Shown here piece by piece: positions 8,699 through 12,453 of a stretch of DNA of 23,349 nucleotides (the stretch's first letter is position 1; each line of letters begins with the position of its first letter). Source of the stretch: a virus; IMG/VR virus record IMGVR_UViG_3300010392_005399, positions 1 to 23,349 of that record. One strand, given 5' to 3'. The notes below the pieces were generated by a model. That model was given only the letters and a program-made list of their open reading frames with translations, did no database searches and was not told where the DNA came from. Made by a program: the position numbers and the translations under genes.

Positions 8699-8895
8699 CC
8701 CAGACATGGAAACCAATCGGAGCGATAGCCGCGAAGCTTGTCGCCGCAAAGACACAGGAAGGCCAGAGCAATGGGCGATCTGAGTTACATCAACCCGAAC
8801 GGGCAAGCGCCGGAACAGGTGGCGCTGCAGGAAGCCAAGCAGCCGCACAGCATCGAAGCGGAGCAACAGCTTTTGGGGGCGCTTCTGACGAATAA
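8695..8895 (+). CDS. Possible small protein overlapping the DnaB gene
   Basis: An ATG at 8695, in an ATGA overlap with the upstream stop, opens a 66-codon frame (MTQTWKPIGAIAAKLVAAKT, then a polar Ala/Gly-rich end). The first 25 codons lie in otherwise unused DNA and look protein-like, but the last 42 overlap the start of dnaB in another frame. It may be a genuine short gene whose end has run into dnaB, or just a translational coupler that delivers ribosomes to the helicase start. Confidence 0.4.
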   Translation: MTQTWKPIGAIAAKLVAAKTQEGQSNGRSELHQPERASAGTGGAAGSQAAAQHRSGATAFGGASDE

Positions 8896-10204
8896 CGGCA
8901 ACCTGTCGCGGGTGGCTAACATCATCGAACCGTCCGATTTCTACGAACCGACACACCAAGCGATTTACGAAGTCATCATCGGCAAAGTGGACCGCGATGA
9001 ACTGGCCACGCCTGTCACACTCAAGGCGACACTGTCAGCGCATGCTGGCCTGAACGAACTTGGCGCGGGGTATCTCGCGCGTTTGGCCGGGGCGGCGATT
9101 TCCACGAGCGCGGTTGCTGACTACGCCAAAATCATCGCGGACATGTCCCGTAAGCGCCAAGCGTTGGAATTTCTGCAGCAAGCTTCTGACGCACTGGTTC
9201 ATGGTGCAGAGGCAACCGGGGATATTATGGGGCGTCTAGAGGATGCCGTTGTGTCCCTGCGGCCCTCTGACAGCCGCCTTCGGCCCGTGTCGATGCTTTC
9301 GGCGGTCACAGGTGCGGTTGAGCACATCAACGCGGCATATCACGGCGAAAGCGTCCCGGCGATCATCAGCCCCTTCAATGCGCTCTACAACGTCATGCCC
9401 TATGCCCGCGCCGGAGATATGATGGTCTTGGGCGGTCGCCCCTCTATGGGTAAATCAGCTCTAGCCATCAGCTATGCAACTGCAGCGGCCCGCGCGGGGC
9501 ATCCTGTCGTCATGGCGTCCCGTGAAATGCTGGCAGAGGACGTGGCGATGCGCGTCATGTCTGAGGCCACCAGCGAAGCCGGAAACGCTGTAGCATATAC
9601 CAACATGTCATCCGGGGCGCTGGATCAACGGGCGTTTCGGCAGACCGTGGAATCCGCAAAATCGCTGCAGGATATGCCTTTCTACATATTGCCGCCAGAT
9701 TTTCGAACCGTGGGGTCGGTAACAGCGGGCGTAAAGCAAGCCATTCGCACGATGGGCATGGACAACGGTAAAATCCCGTTAATCGTGATCGACTACATCA
9801 GCCTTTTGGATGGAAACGGGCGCGACCTGCGGGAACAGATCACCGATGTATCCAAGAAGGTAAAGCACCTAGCCATGACCACGGGCGGCGTATGCTTAGC
9901 CCTGTCGCAGCTATCGCGGGCCGTAGAACAGCGGCAGGACAAGCGCCCCATGCTTTCCGACCTCCGGGAAACAGGCCAGATCGAACAAGACGCAGACGCC
10001 GTTTTGTTCTGTTACCGCGATGAATACTACATCGAACGCGAAAGACCGGAGGATGGTAAAGAGGCTGCGTTAGAGGACTGGCAGAATCGCCTGGAAAAGT
10101 CGCGCGGCAAGCTTGAACTGATAGTTGCCAAGCAGAGACGCGGGCCAATCGGCACGGCGCATCTGAACTTCGCCGCTGCGTTCAACCGGGTGTGGGAGTA
10201 CTGA
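8771..10204 (+). CDS. dnaB: Replicative DNA helicase DnaB
   Basis: A full-length (477 aa) DnaB-type hexameric helicase that unwinds DNA ahead of the fork. The N-terminal domain (HSIEAEQQLLGALLTNNGNL and the DFYEPTHQAIYEVI block) binds primase. The RecA-like domain shows Walker A GRPSMGKS at 222-229, Walker B LIVIDYISLL with D341, and the DnaB-specific SQLSRAVEQRQDKRPMLSDL followed by RETGQIEQDADAVLF. I start it at ATG 8771, preceded by AGGAAGG. The next gene is the initiator, so the phage brings its own helicase; no separate helicase loader was seen. Confidence 0.95.
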   Translation: MGDLSYINPNGQAPEQVALQEAKQPHSIEAEQQLLGALLTNNGNLSRVANIIEPSDFYEPTHQAIYEVIIGKVDRDELATPVTLKATLSAHAGLNELGAGYLARLAGAAISTSAVADYAKIIADMSRKRQALEFLQQASDALVHGAEATGDIMGRLEDAVVSLRPSDSRLRPVSMLSAVTGAVEHINAAYHGESVPAIISPFNALYNVMPYARAGDMMVLGGRPSMGKSALAISYATAAARAGHPVVMASREMLAEDVAMRVMSEATSEAGNAVAYTNMSSGALDQRAFRQTVESAKSLQDMPFYILPPDFRTVGSVTAGVKQAIRTMGMDNGKIPLIVIDYISLLDGNGRDLREQITDVSKKVKHLAMTTGGVCLALSQLSRAVEQRQDKRPMLSDLRETGQIEQDADAVLFCYRDEYYIERERPEDGKEAALEDWQNRLEKSRGKLELIVAKQRRGPIGTAHLNFAAAFNRVWEY

Positions 10205-10206
10205 CG

Positions 10207-10968
10207 ATGAGTGTTCACGTCATGTCGCATGTCTGGAAACACGGTCCTGCAGATCGGTCCGAACTTCTGATCCTCCTCGCGTTGGCCGATTTTTCGGACG
10301 ATGACGGGTACTGCTGGCCGTCGATGGAAGCGGTCGCCAAGAAGGCCAGAATGGGCGAACGCGGGGCGCAAAAGGTGGTCCGCAGATTGCAAGAAACCGG
10401 GTGGATTTCCGTCCAGACCGGAGGCGGTCGCCACGGGTGCAACAACTACCAAATCAACCTCAAAAAACCCGAACAAGAAACACCGAACCCCGTTCACCCC
10501 GAACCCCGTTCACCCCGAACGGGAGTGCAAAAACCCCGAACCAGAGTGCAAGAAACCCCGAACGGCGGTTCACCCGAACCGTCAGGAACCATCAAAGAAC
10601 CGTCAGAACGCGCGAAGGTGCGTGATGTTCTTTGTGAAGTTGCGGGTGATGAGGCGGTGGCCAGCTTCATGGCATATCGTAGCAAGCAGAAGGGCAAGGC
10701 GATGACCCTGACCGGAGCGAAGCGTCTGGCAAACCACCTTCAAAAGATCAAAGTTTCCGGCGGCGATGCTGATGACGCCTTAGCGCTGGCAGAGGAGCGC
10801 GGCTGGCAATCCGTCGAGCCGGGCTGGTACTTCCGAGAGACAGCCAAATCAGAGCGCCATATTTCGCAGCAATCCGGCAAGACCGTTCCGCGTGACGACT
10901 GGAAAACGGGGTCAACGATGGCACCAGCTGCCCCACCACCACCACCACGGCGAAACCTGCAGAATTGA
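10207..10968 (+). CDS. Phage replication initiator, lambda-O-like, winged-helix
   Basis: A 253-residue initiator. Residues about 1-85 are a winged helix of the HTH_36/replication-O type (MSHVWKHGPADRSELLILLA, then DDDGYCWPSMEAVAKKARMG and VVRRLQETGWISVQTGGGRH). A Pro/Arg-rich linker (about 90-135) follows, whose DNA carries iteron-like repeats. The C-terminal part (ALALAEERGWQSVEPGWYF) is the small helical module found in DnaA/DnaD-like and O-like proteins and probably contacts DnaB. Start ATG 10207 lies two bases after the dnaB stop. Like lambda O, it would bind the origin within its own gene. Confidence 0.75.
   Translation: MSVHVMSHVWKHGPADRSELLILLALADFSDDDGYCWPSMEAVAKKARMGERGAQKVVRRLQETGWISVQTGGGRHGCNNYQINLKKPEQETPNPVHPEPRSPRTGVQKPRTRVQETPNGGSPEPSGTIKEPSERAKVRDVLCEVAGDEAVASFMAYRSKQKGKAMTLTGAKRLANHLQKIKVSGGDADDALALAEERGWQSVEPGWYFRETAKSERHISQQSGKTVPRDDWKTGSTMAPAAPPPPPRRNLQN
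10483..10606 (+). repeat. Iteron-like direct repeats, candidate replication origin
   Basis: CCGAAC occurs six times (10483, 10499, 10515, 10536, 10558, 10574) at spacings of 16, 16, 21, 22 and 16 bases. The first two units, CCGAACCCCGTTCACC, are identical 16-mers. GAACCGTCAG then occurs twice (10576, 10597), 21 bases apart. All lie in the linker of the initiator gene, as lambda's O-binding iterons do. Regular spacing near one or two helix turns supports protein binding. A low-complexity Pro linker could produce weaker repeats by itself. No AT-rich unwinding element is obvious beside them. Confidence 0.6.
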
Positions 10969-11036: not shown

Positions 11037-11546
11037 ATGACAAAGCAAGAGTTTATAGACCACGGGATGAGCCGACAAGCGGTTGCGGCTGCTGAATTGG
11101 TTCGGGCGCTGAATGACGACGACCCAGACCTGATCCACGACACAGTGGAGGGCGAAACAGACTTTTTCGAAGCGGTACAACGGGCGCTGGACGAAATCGC
11201 AGAGTGTGAAATCGTTCAGTCTGGTTGTGCAGACATGAAGCAGCGACTTTCGGATCGCGAGACGCGGGCCAAAAATCGCGCCGATAAGTTGCGCGGGCTG
11301 ATCGACCAAGCTTTTCAGCTTGCCGAAGTCACGTCGCACAAATTCCCCACGGCAACGATCACGACAAAGCGCGTACCGCCCAAGTTGATTGTCACGGACG
11401 AAGCTGCAATCCCAGCCCGCTTCTACGCGCCACAGCCGCCAAAGCTGGACAAGAAGGCGCTGGCTGATGCGCTCAAGTCGGGAGGCCCAATTGAAGGCGC
11501 GGAAATGAGCAACGGCGGCACAACCATTCAAATTCGGAGGGCATGA
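11037..11546 (+). CDS. Siphovirus Gp157-family protein
   Basis: Length (169 aa) and layout fit the Gp157 family: acidic N-terminal helices, a central basic coiled coil (MKQRLSDRETRAKNRADKLR) and a conserved C-terminal domain (KRVPPKLIVTDEAAIPARFY, then PQPPKLDKKALADALKSGGP and VEGAEM-like ending). Gp157 proteins lie next to RecT/Bet annealases in many siphoviruses and are thought to aid recombination or resistance, without a proven mechanism. AAAGGAG precedes the ATG. It stands directly in front of bet. Confidence 0.85.
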   Translation: MTKQEFIDHGMSRQAVAAAELVRALNDDDPDLIHDTVEGETDFFEAVQRALDEIAECEIVQSGCADMKQRLSDRETRAKNRADKLRGLIDQAFQLAEVTSHKFPTATITTKRVPPKLIVTDEAAIPARFYAPQPPKLDKKALADALKSGGPIEGAEMSNGGTTIQIRRA

Positions 11547-11547
11547 T

Positions 11548-12453
11548 ATGGGACTTCCTGACTTCACCCCGGCACAGCTTACGACCATCAAGAACACGGT
11601 CGCGAAGGACACTAATGCGCTTGAGTTCGACCTATTCATGAACGCGGCGCGGTCTTATGGTTTAGACCCGTTCCGTAAGCAGATCAGCGCGATTGTTTTT
11701 AGTAAGAACGATCCGAGGAAACGGCAAATGGCCATCATCGTCGGGCGTGACGGCCTACGGTCAATCGCTGCGCGGTGTGGTGACTATCGGCCTGCATCCG
11801 GCCCCGCTCAGATCGTCTACGACGAAGCGGCCAAGTCCAGCGTTAACCCGAAAGGTATCGTTTCTGTCGGCGTAACCCTGTTTAAGCAGGACAATCGCGG
11901 CGAGTGGCACCCTGTATACGGCGAAGCCTTTTGGGATGAGTTCGCGCCTATTAAGGACGAATGGGCATACGACCAAGAGGCGGGCCAGAGGAAACCAACG
12001 GGCAAGCAAACGGTAGACGGTAATTGGTCAAAGATGCCGATTGTCATGCTGACCAAGTGTGCCGAGGGGCAGGCGCTTCGCGCGGGGTGGCCCGACCAGT
12101 TCGGCAATCTCTACGCCGAAGAGGAAATGCAGGCCCATACGACCAAGGACATCACCCCTAGCGACGAAATTGCACGTGAGGCCGCGCACCGCCGGGAAAA
12201 CGCTATCGGCGGCAAAGGCATCATGATGGTGATGGATCAATCGGGCGTAATGGAGCGGATCAAAATCGGTGAGGTAGCGGACCGATGCGCCGAGTTCATC
12301 AAGAACAACGACCCAGAAGAGGTTTATCGTTGGTCGATCCAGAACCGGGAACCGCTGCGCGAATTTTGGACGGCGGAACCGAATGATGCGCTTGAGGTCA
12401 AGAAAGCCATTGAAGCCAAGACCTCCGCCGTTGGCAAGGATCAGGCGGCATGA
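11548..12453 (+). CDS. bet: Phage recombination protein Bet (RecT/Red-beta type annealase)
   Basis: A single-strand annealing protein that pairs complementary strands during phage recombination. The family signature is plain: LTTIKNTVAKDTNALEFDLF, then YGLDPFRKQISAIVFSK, QMAIIVGRDGLRSIAARCGD and KCAEGQALRAGWPDQFGNLY near 170-190. At 301 residues it is of full length. Start ATG 11548 follows GGAGGG. Its usual partner exonuclease is not found next to it; only Gp157 upstream and NinB downstream are present. Confidence 0.92.
   Translation: MGLPDFTPAQLTTIKNTVAKDTNALEFDLFMNAARSYGLDPFRKQISAIVFSKNDPRKRQMAIIVGRDGLRSIAARCGDYRPASGPAQIVYDEAAKSSVNPKGIVSVGVTLFKQDNRGEWHPVYGEAFWDEFAPIKDEWAYDQEAGQRKPTGKQTVDGNWSKMPIVMLTKCAEGQALRAGWPDQFGNLYAEEEMQAHTTKDITPSDEIAREAAHRRENAIGGKGIMMVMDQSGVMERIKIGEVADRCAEFIKNNDPEEVYRWSIQNREPLREFWTAEPNDALEVKKAIEAKTSAVGKDQAA

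Follow-up and report, generated by a model that had tools for sequence, protein, structure and literature searches.

The stretch of DNA analysed here (the window) is a viral record of 23,349 bases, and positions 10466-10605 within it are highly likely to be a phage replication origin lying inside the linker codons of the initiator gene, where the initiator's winged helix would bind an array of dyads and AACCRTCA copies would open the strands or load DnaB. Sequence comparisons provide the array itself, its conservation at the DNA level, the joint change of recognition helix and box among relatives, and a second element with a fixed place beside the dyads. Because recognition helix and box change together, the boxes are tied to the initiator protein; judging from these patterns, it is very probable that this protein, like lambda O, binds within its own gene. 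Additionally, the adjoining DnaB gene suggests an origin, as does the predicted layout of winged helix, flexible linker and separate C-terminal domain (Table 1).

Table 1. Features of the initiator region and its neighbouring genes, in window coordinates
Feature	Position	Strand	Basis
Phage DnaB-like helicase gene, directly upstream of initiator	8738..10204	+	DnaB_C E 1.7e-60; DnaB N domain E 2.1e-25
HTH_36 O-like replication initiator gene, 253 aa	10207..10968	+	Pfam HTH_36 E 1.1e-11; phrog_391 'replication initiation O-like' E 1.1e-20
N-terminal winged helix (predicted), codons 1-86	10207..10464	+	AF2 block pLDDT 91-98 (residues 1-80), 79 (81-90); winged-helix matches, residues 2-86
Recognition helix ERGAQKVVRRLQET (predicted), codons 51-64; position 6 = Q55, position 7 = K56	10357..10398	+	Predicted helix 51-64; of the domain columns, that of K56 tells most about the half-site
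Flexible linker (predicted), codons 87-132; encodes array and most of second element	10465..10602	+	Block pLDDT 56-69, residues 91-130
Iteron array, CCCCGAAC-N3/N5-GTTC (or GTGC) units	10466..10585	+	Box positions, repeat search, synonymous null, alignment with relatives
Dyad 1, GAAC-CCC-GTTC, arms perfect	10485..10495	.	
Dyad 2, GAAC-CCC-GTTC, arms perfect	10501..10511	.	
Dyad GAAC-N5-GTTC	10560..10572	.	
Second element: AACCGTCA 10577-10584, AACCATCA 10587-10594, AACCGTCA 10598-10605; spacing 10 and 11 bp	10577..10605	+	Motif copies; family statistics
Helical C-terminal domain (predicted), codons 133-222	10603..10872	+	Five helices, block pLDDT 86-98
Sipho_Gp157 gene, downstream of initiator	11037..11546	+	Pfam scan
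RecT gene, downstream of initiator	11548..12453	+	Pfam scan

Initiator gene and the array in its linker codons

Two bases separate the end of the DnaB-like gene from the initiator gene, whose product carries an N-terminal PF13730 domain (44.8 bits against a cut-off of 25 in the Pfam scan) and matches two PHROGs of O-like initiators, phrog_391 and phrog_678 (E 1.1e-20 and 2.9e-20, respectively). PF04492 (Phage_rep_O), which lambda O matches at 5.7e-36, was absent from the Pfam scan of the window protein, which returned only HTH_36 and a DnaD_N match below its own cut-off (21.6 bits vs 27). There was no Rep_3 domain (PF01051) among its Pfam matches at E 1e-3. Searches by sequence gave no solved-structure relative with E below 0.04, and the best Foldseek match of the predicted structure was a DnaD model (E 3.1e-3), the others being winged helices, with rows spanning residues 2-86. 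Near the C-terminus, a run of CCA triplets at 10933-10948 encodes a proline tract. As for the downstream genes, three other loci (L029, L030 and L031) have close Gp157-RecT pairs (RecT identity 78-83%), and no O-like ORF was found upstream of these pairs in the DNA examined.

An earlier note on this DNA had claimed six CCGAAC boxes between 10483 and 10606, the first three at exact 16-base spacing. Both statements hold: the boxes lie at 10483, 10499, 10515, 10536, 10558 and 10574, and a seventh is found at 10469, just outside those limits. Their placement in the linker codons of an O-like gene also agrees with the predicted structure, in which the linker is the low-confidence region between two predicted domains (residues ~87-132). 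Each box is, in addition, half of a dyad with GTTC, which the earlier note did not mention. GAAC starts at 10471, 10485, 10501, 10517, 10538, 10560 and 10576 (spacings 14, 16, 16, 21, 22 and 16), and GTTC, at 10492, 10508 and 10569, is paired with the CCGAAC boxes; the unit is therefore the dyad CCCCGAAC-N3-GTTC. The units at 10517 and 10538 are degenerate, with GTGC in place of GTTC. Full N3 dyads number two (p 11/300), and this degeneracy of the array counts against the origin reading. Repeats are nonetheless denser here than anywhere else in the 23-kb window, and the top two Tandem Repeats Finder scores fall on the array; an Rfam search gave no match.

From 10469 to 10574, the seven boxes are in frames 1, 0, 1, 2, 2, 0 and 1, and since all three frames are used they are not a protein repeat. 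When the protein was kept and codons were drawn from phage usage, seven CCGAAC were reached in 0/20,000 trials (mean 1.06), the observed repeated 12-mers or 16-mers in 0/20,000, and four GAAC/GTTC dyads in 9/20,000. Thus the DNA identity does exceed what a Pro-rich linker would need, as had been proposed. Permuting the linker's own codons gave seven CCGAAC in 45/20,000 trials and repeated 16-mers in 63/20,000.

Base composition was also considered. GC content is 0.517 at 10580-10639, lower values occur elsewhere in the window, and the cumulative GC skew has its minimum near 4-5 kb with no turn at the array. When an AT-rich unwinding tract was looked for, the array proved not to be the weakest stretch in its surroundings; like the GC skew, this weighs against the origin reading.

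Conservation among relatives and the second element

Relatives were collected both by box pattern and by protein similarity. In IMG/VR, the exact pattern GAACNNNGTTCACCCCGAAC found 18 stretches, of which 11 are O-like genes; the others are four copies of one gene for an unrelated repeat-rich protein that carries GAACNNNGTTCACCCCGAAC by chance (L038, L039, L046 and L048) and three further unrelated stretches (L033, L036 and L045). A second pattern found three stretches in bacterial genomes, two of them O-like genes (L050 from Polynucleobacter and L051 from Dyella, not L052). Four of the relatives found by box pattern (L041, L044, L047 and L037), in each of which at least one box was selected while the other boxes and the gene context were not, were aligned with the window. 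The GAAC and GTTC arms and the flanking C runs are kept over several units, N3 varies, and indels shift the reading frame. Boxes are thus kept while residues and frame change, the outcome that the earlier note had proposed to look for in relatives with altered linkers.

Thirteen further genes taken without box selection have GAAC-N3-GTTC dyads; among them is L053, which has 53% identity in its best segment and carries five. The pattern CCCCGAACN{3,5}GTTC is present in 10 of 12 viral records, in each case confined to a single cluster in the initiator region, and its reversed-pattern control gave 0 over the whole viral records; the two records without it (L008 and L022) have other repeats in the linker. 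Of 86 dereplicated O-like genes, 13 of which come from box-scan loci, 78 show more linker repeats than the synonymous null allows at 1%, and similar arrays were seen in 28/32 and 39/57 genes of the two hold-out sets described below. Among 73 genes chosen by protein similarity alone, 25 have at least three identical 4-bp-arm dyads at gap 3 and 26 have them at gap 5 (expected 0.25 and 0.1), whereas any other gap gives repeated dyads of this type in 0-5 genes. Since gaps 3 and 5 can share one centre, the dyad frame is the same from phage to phage and the half-sites placed on it differ.

The two GAACCGTCAG boxes described previously, 21 bases apart, were found again at 10576 and 10597. They are, however, not part of the iteron array as had been supposed, but the outer copies of a separate three-copy AACCRTCA element, the middle copy of which has one change (GAACCATCA) and lies at 10586. 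In 66 protein-selected genes dereplicated at 80%, AACCRTCA occurs in the linker of 42 (expected 4.9, maximum 9 in 50 synonymous simulations), and two or more copies occur in 31 (0.3 expected). The spacing between copies is 10 or 11 bp in 35/45 cases, only one gene of the set has the motif on the reverse strand, and linkers contain 4.04 copies per kb, compared with 0.05 per kb over the remaining 241 kb. Copies are spread over the reading frames (55, 21 and 11) and are therefore not only an EPS peptide motif. Relative to the dyads in 64 clear-dyad genes, AACCRTCA is 3' of all dyads in 35, mixed in 8 and absent in 21, with 5 nt between it and the last dyad in 25/43 and 6 nt in 5 more.

A scan for AACCRTCA triplets gave, among the matches listed, at least 119 loci, at least 85 of them within an O-like ORF in its coding orientation and 0 in the opposite orientation. 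At least 34 of the loci among these matches had no O-like match; about ten of them appear by eye to be O-like genes that are broken or cut by a contig end, and the remainder are simple repeats or other proteins. L167 (7161-7200) and L241 (11992-12040; both on the reading strand) have four AACCATCA at 11-bp spacing, in ORFs that fall outside the O-like profile and encode NHQATIKQPSSNHQ; these are perhaps another initiator family with the same element.

Mean GC across the family dips at AACCRTCA to 0.167 below gene GC, partly because the motif set the alignment. A hairpin with a stem of at least 6 bp follows AACCRTCA in 35/117 genes, compared with 7% under the synonymous null and 6% in other windows. 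In several loci (L127, L095, L058, L103, L102, L085, L131 and others) the hairpin lies within 45 nt past the last AACCRTCA, is of unrelated sequence and often has a TGAC, TAAC or TGGC loop. No such hairpin is claimed for the window itself, where the stem is only 4 bp and 22/60 null draws were as good.

Co-variation of recognition helix and box

The recognition helix was numbered x1-E2-R3-x4-x5-Q6-x7, corresponding in the window to G50, E51, R52, G53, A54, Q55 and K56, and its pairing with the box was assessed in 54 genes with a clear N3 dyad that were not box-selected. K at position 7 occurs with GAAC (11/11 genes), N, G or Q with GCAx (14/14), R with GxCA (9/11), and A or T with GAAG (5/9). 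No other aligned domain column is as informative as position 7 (z 6.3, 6.3 and 3.5 at 75, 65 and 55% clustering, with 34, 21 and 13 clusters). At position 6, Q occurs with a pyrimidine at -6 in 46/46 genes (36 not box-selected, 10 box-selected), and R with G at -6 in 7/10. The window array misses the cut used for a clear dyad, yet it fits the pairing of K7 with GAAC.

Some close relatives differ in helix and box together. For instance, L091 and L130 are 88% identical outside the helix, and both helix (LTTRAVQKT to MAGRSVQRI) and boxes (TGAAC-N3-GTTCA to TGACA-N3-TGTCA, in the same places) are swapped. With the viral contigs L067, L083, L105, L070, L078, L092 and their kin, they have nearly the same initiator in three helix/box versions (GAAC, GACA and GCAT), and by sequence comparison the L067/L091/L130 group represents natural specificity swaps. 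The second element behaves differently: AACCRTCA is found alongside GAAC, GAAG, GCAx and GxCA dyads alike, and its variant in the swap clade (ATACATCA, AACCACCA) is nearly constant while the dyads change. Therefore, the recognition helix is seemingly not its reader.

On its fitting data the helix rule was correct for 54/58 genes, compared with 42/58 for the nearest neighbour outside the helix. The rule was then fixed before two hold-out sets were scored. The near set (78 loci and 81 ORFs, from which 26 near-identical to the first set were dropped and the rest dereplicated to 34) contained 15 clear dyads, of which 12 were predicted correctly, 0 wrongly, and 3 had no rule. The distant set consisted of prophage genes from overlapping draws of 197, 274 and 398 genomes (79 loci and 73 O-like ORFs, 9 near-identical to the first set dropped, 63 after dereplication); of its nine clear dyads, 2 were right, 6 wrong and 1 without a rule. 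A universal helix code by position 7 was ruled out by this distant set, and the code is therefore claimed for the near subfamily only; on the sequences compared, the link between helix and box holds near the window. The position 6 pairing fitted 2/2 R and 2/2 Q in the distant set, and 13/13 Q but not the single R in the near set. AACCRTCA is present in 23/34 near and 11/63 distant hold-out genes.

Comparison with known origins and proposed mechanism

An origin inside the initiator gene is known for lambda and its kin (PMC7466680; PMC6022878), so the window's would be of a known kind, in an initiator family and architecture that differ from lambda's. According to PMC7466680, the iterons of lambda and Stx phages and their AT-rich tract are located centrally in O, mutants with synonymous changes in these iterons lose replication, and O binds the AT-rich DNA in single-stranded form. 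Lambda and the Stx phages P27 and 933W share with the window iterons inside the linker coding region, with an N-terminal DNA-binding domain 5' of them, and lambda also shares dyad iterons in all three frames and a further origin element beside the iterons. As a control, the four annotated iterons in lambda O were located inside the gene in frames 0, 2, 2 and 1, the first being CCCTC-N5-GAGGG. The parallel with lambda drawn in the earlier note, in which O binds iterons in its own gene, is thus supported by the conservation, the family-wide arrays and the helix co-change, but it does not extend to the protein family, which is HTH_36 (PF13730) and not PF04492. Further, the iterons of lambda, four in number, are AT-containing and are accompanied by an AT-rich tract (PMC7466680), in contrast to the GC-rich dyads and phased AACCRTCA of the window. 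Lambda uses P and host DnaB, whereas the window has a phage DnaB gene upstream and not a P-like loader downstream. No AACCRTCA copy was found in the stretch of lambda O read. Iterons and O N-termini also co-vary among lambdoid phages.

Closer in family are EBPR podovirus 2 gp8 and Pseudomonas phage PP9W2 (by Pfam HTH_36) and Sphingopyxis phage VSN-002 (by tblastn), all of which share the N-terminal family, linker repeats and the AACCRTCA element; they differ in half-sites (GGCAC in PP9W2) and C-terminal parts, and are annotated as hypothetical, primosomal or HTH proteins with no origin annotated. In Rep_3-type iteron plasmids a winged-helix initiator likewise has repeated sites next to a less stable element, as proposed for the window, but there the sites are in a separate origin region rather than inside the gene.

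The same evidence for binding would also fit an autoregulatory operator, with the winged-helix protein repressing transcription or counting copies while replication starts elsewhere, and winged-helix folds do resemble transcription regulators. This is improbable, since multi-copy arrays with a phased second element lie inside a gene adjoining DnaB, the matching PHROGs are named as replication initiators, and the same layout in lambda is an origin (PMC7466680); copy control could, moreover, coexist with use as an origin. Still less probable is that the array serves another factor, such as a host protein or a defence or satellite system: dyad binding by the initiator is deduced from sequence, and prophages do have gene-embedded sites that serve other ends (one is the aba element of bstA), but in near relatives the half-site of the dyads changes with the recognition helix of the initiator itself. 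The argument for another factor continues to apply to AACCRTCA, which does not follow the helix. Least probable is that the repeats have no DNA function and arose from a Pro-rich disordered linker or through recent slippage, for although the linker is low in complexity and predicted to be flexible, and slippage can enlarge tandem arrays, this explanation is already contradicted by boxes in three frames, the synonymous null, arms kept without N3 between relatives with shifted frames, dyad gaps of 3 and 5, and co-change with the recognition helix.

For the preferred reading, an origin within the initiator gene, we infer binding, dimer binding, origin activity, strand opening and DnaB loading from the sequence patterns. 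The N-terminal winged helix would bind the GAAC-N3/N5-GTTC dyads as a dimer or as paired monomers, and Q55 and K56 in the recognition helix would determine which sequence is bound. Bound at several places along the array (spacings 16, 16, 21, 22 and 16), copies of the initiator could wrap it in an O-some-like complex. The adjoining AACCRTCA copies, spaced at 10/11 bp, would be a putative unwinding or helicase-loading element, that is, an orientation-specific site of strand opening or loading of the phage DnaB encoded next door, which would serve as the helicase. We lean towards a more general form for HTH_36 in-gene origins, in which a swappable dyad array read by helix positions 6 and 7 is joined to an unswapped AACCRTCA module, phased at 10.5 bp, nearly always in coding-strand orientation, usually placed 5-6 nt past the last dyad and read by something else. 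As AACCRTCA is common to initiators with different dyads, that reader could be DnaB, a factor of the host, a conserved surface on the initiator or the opened strand. Among the matches listed from open-licence PMC text, no paper was found on a helix-to-iteron code in HTH_36 phage initiators or on an AACCRTCA origin element.

Overall, the probable origin of an uncultured phage is narrowed to about 140 bp, and the lambda layout is extended to a large and different initiator family. With the sites of each protein present in its own gene, public genomes amount to self-labelled data on winged-helix DNA reading, and natural swaps such as L091/L130 make the proposed helix reading directly testable. 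The phased AACCRTCA is a defined candidate for the least understood step at such origins, strand opening or helicase loading. If the two-module arrangement is true, each gene would contain a written record of its own DNA specificity, legible for near relatives.
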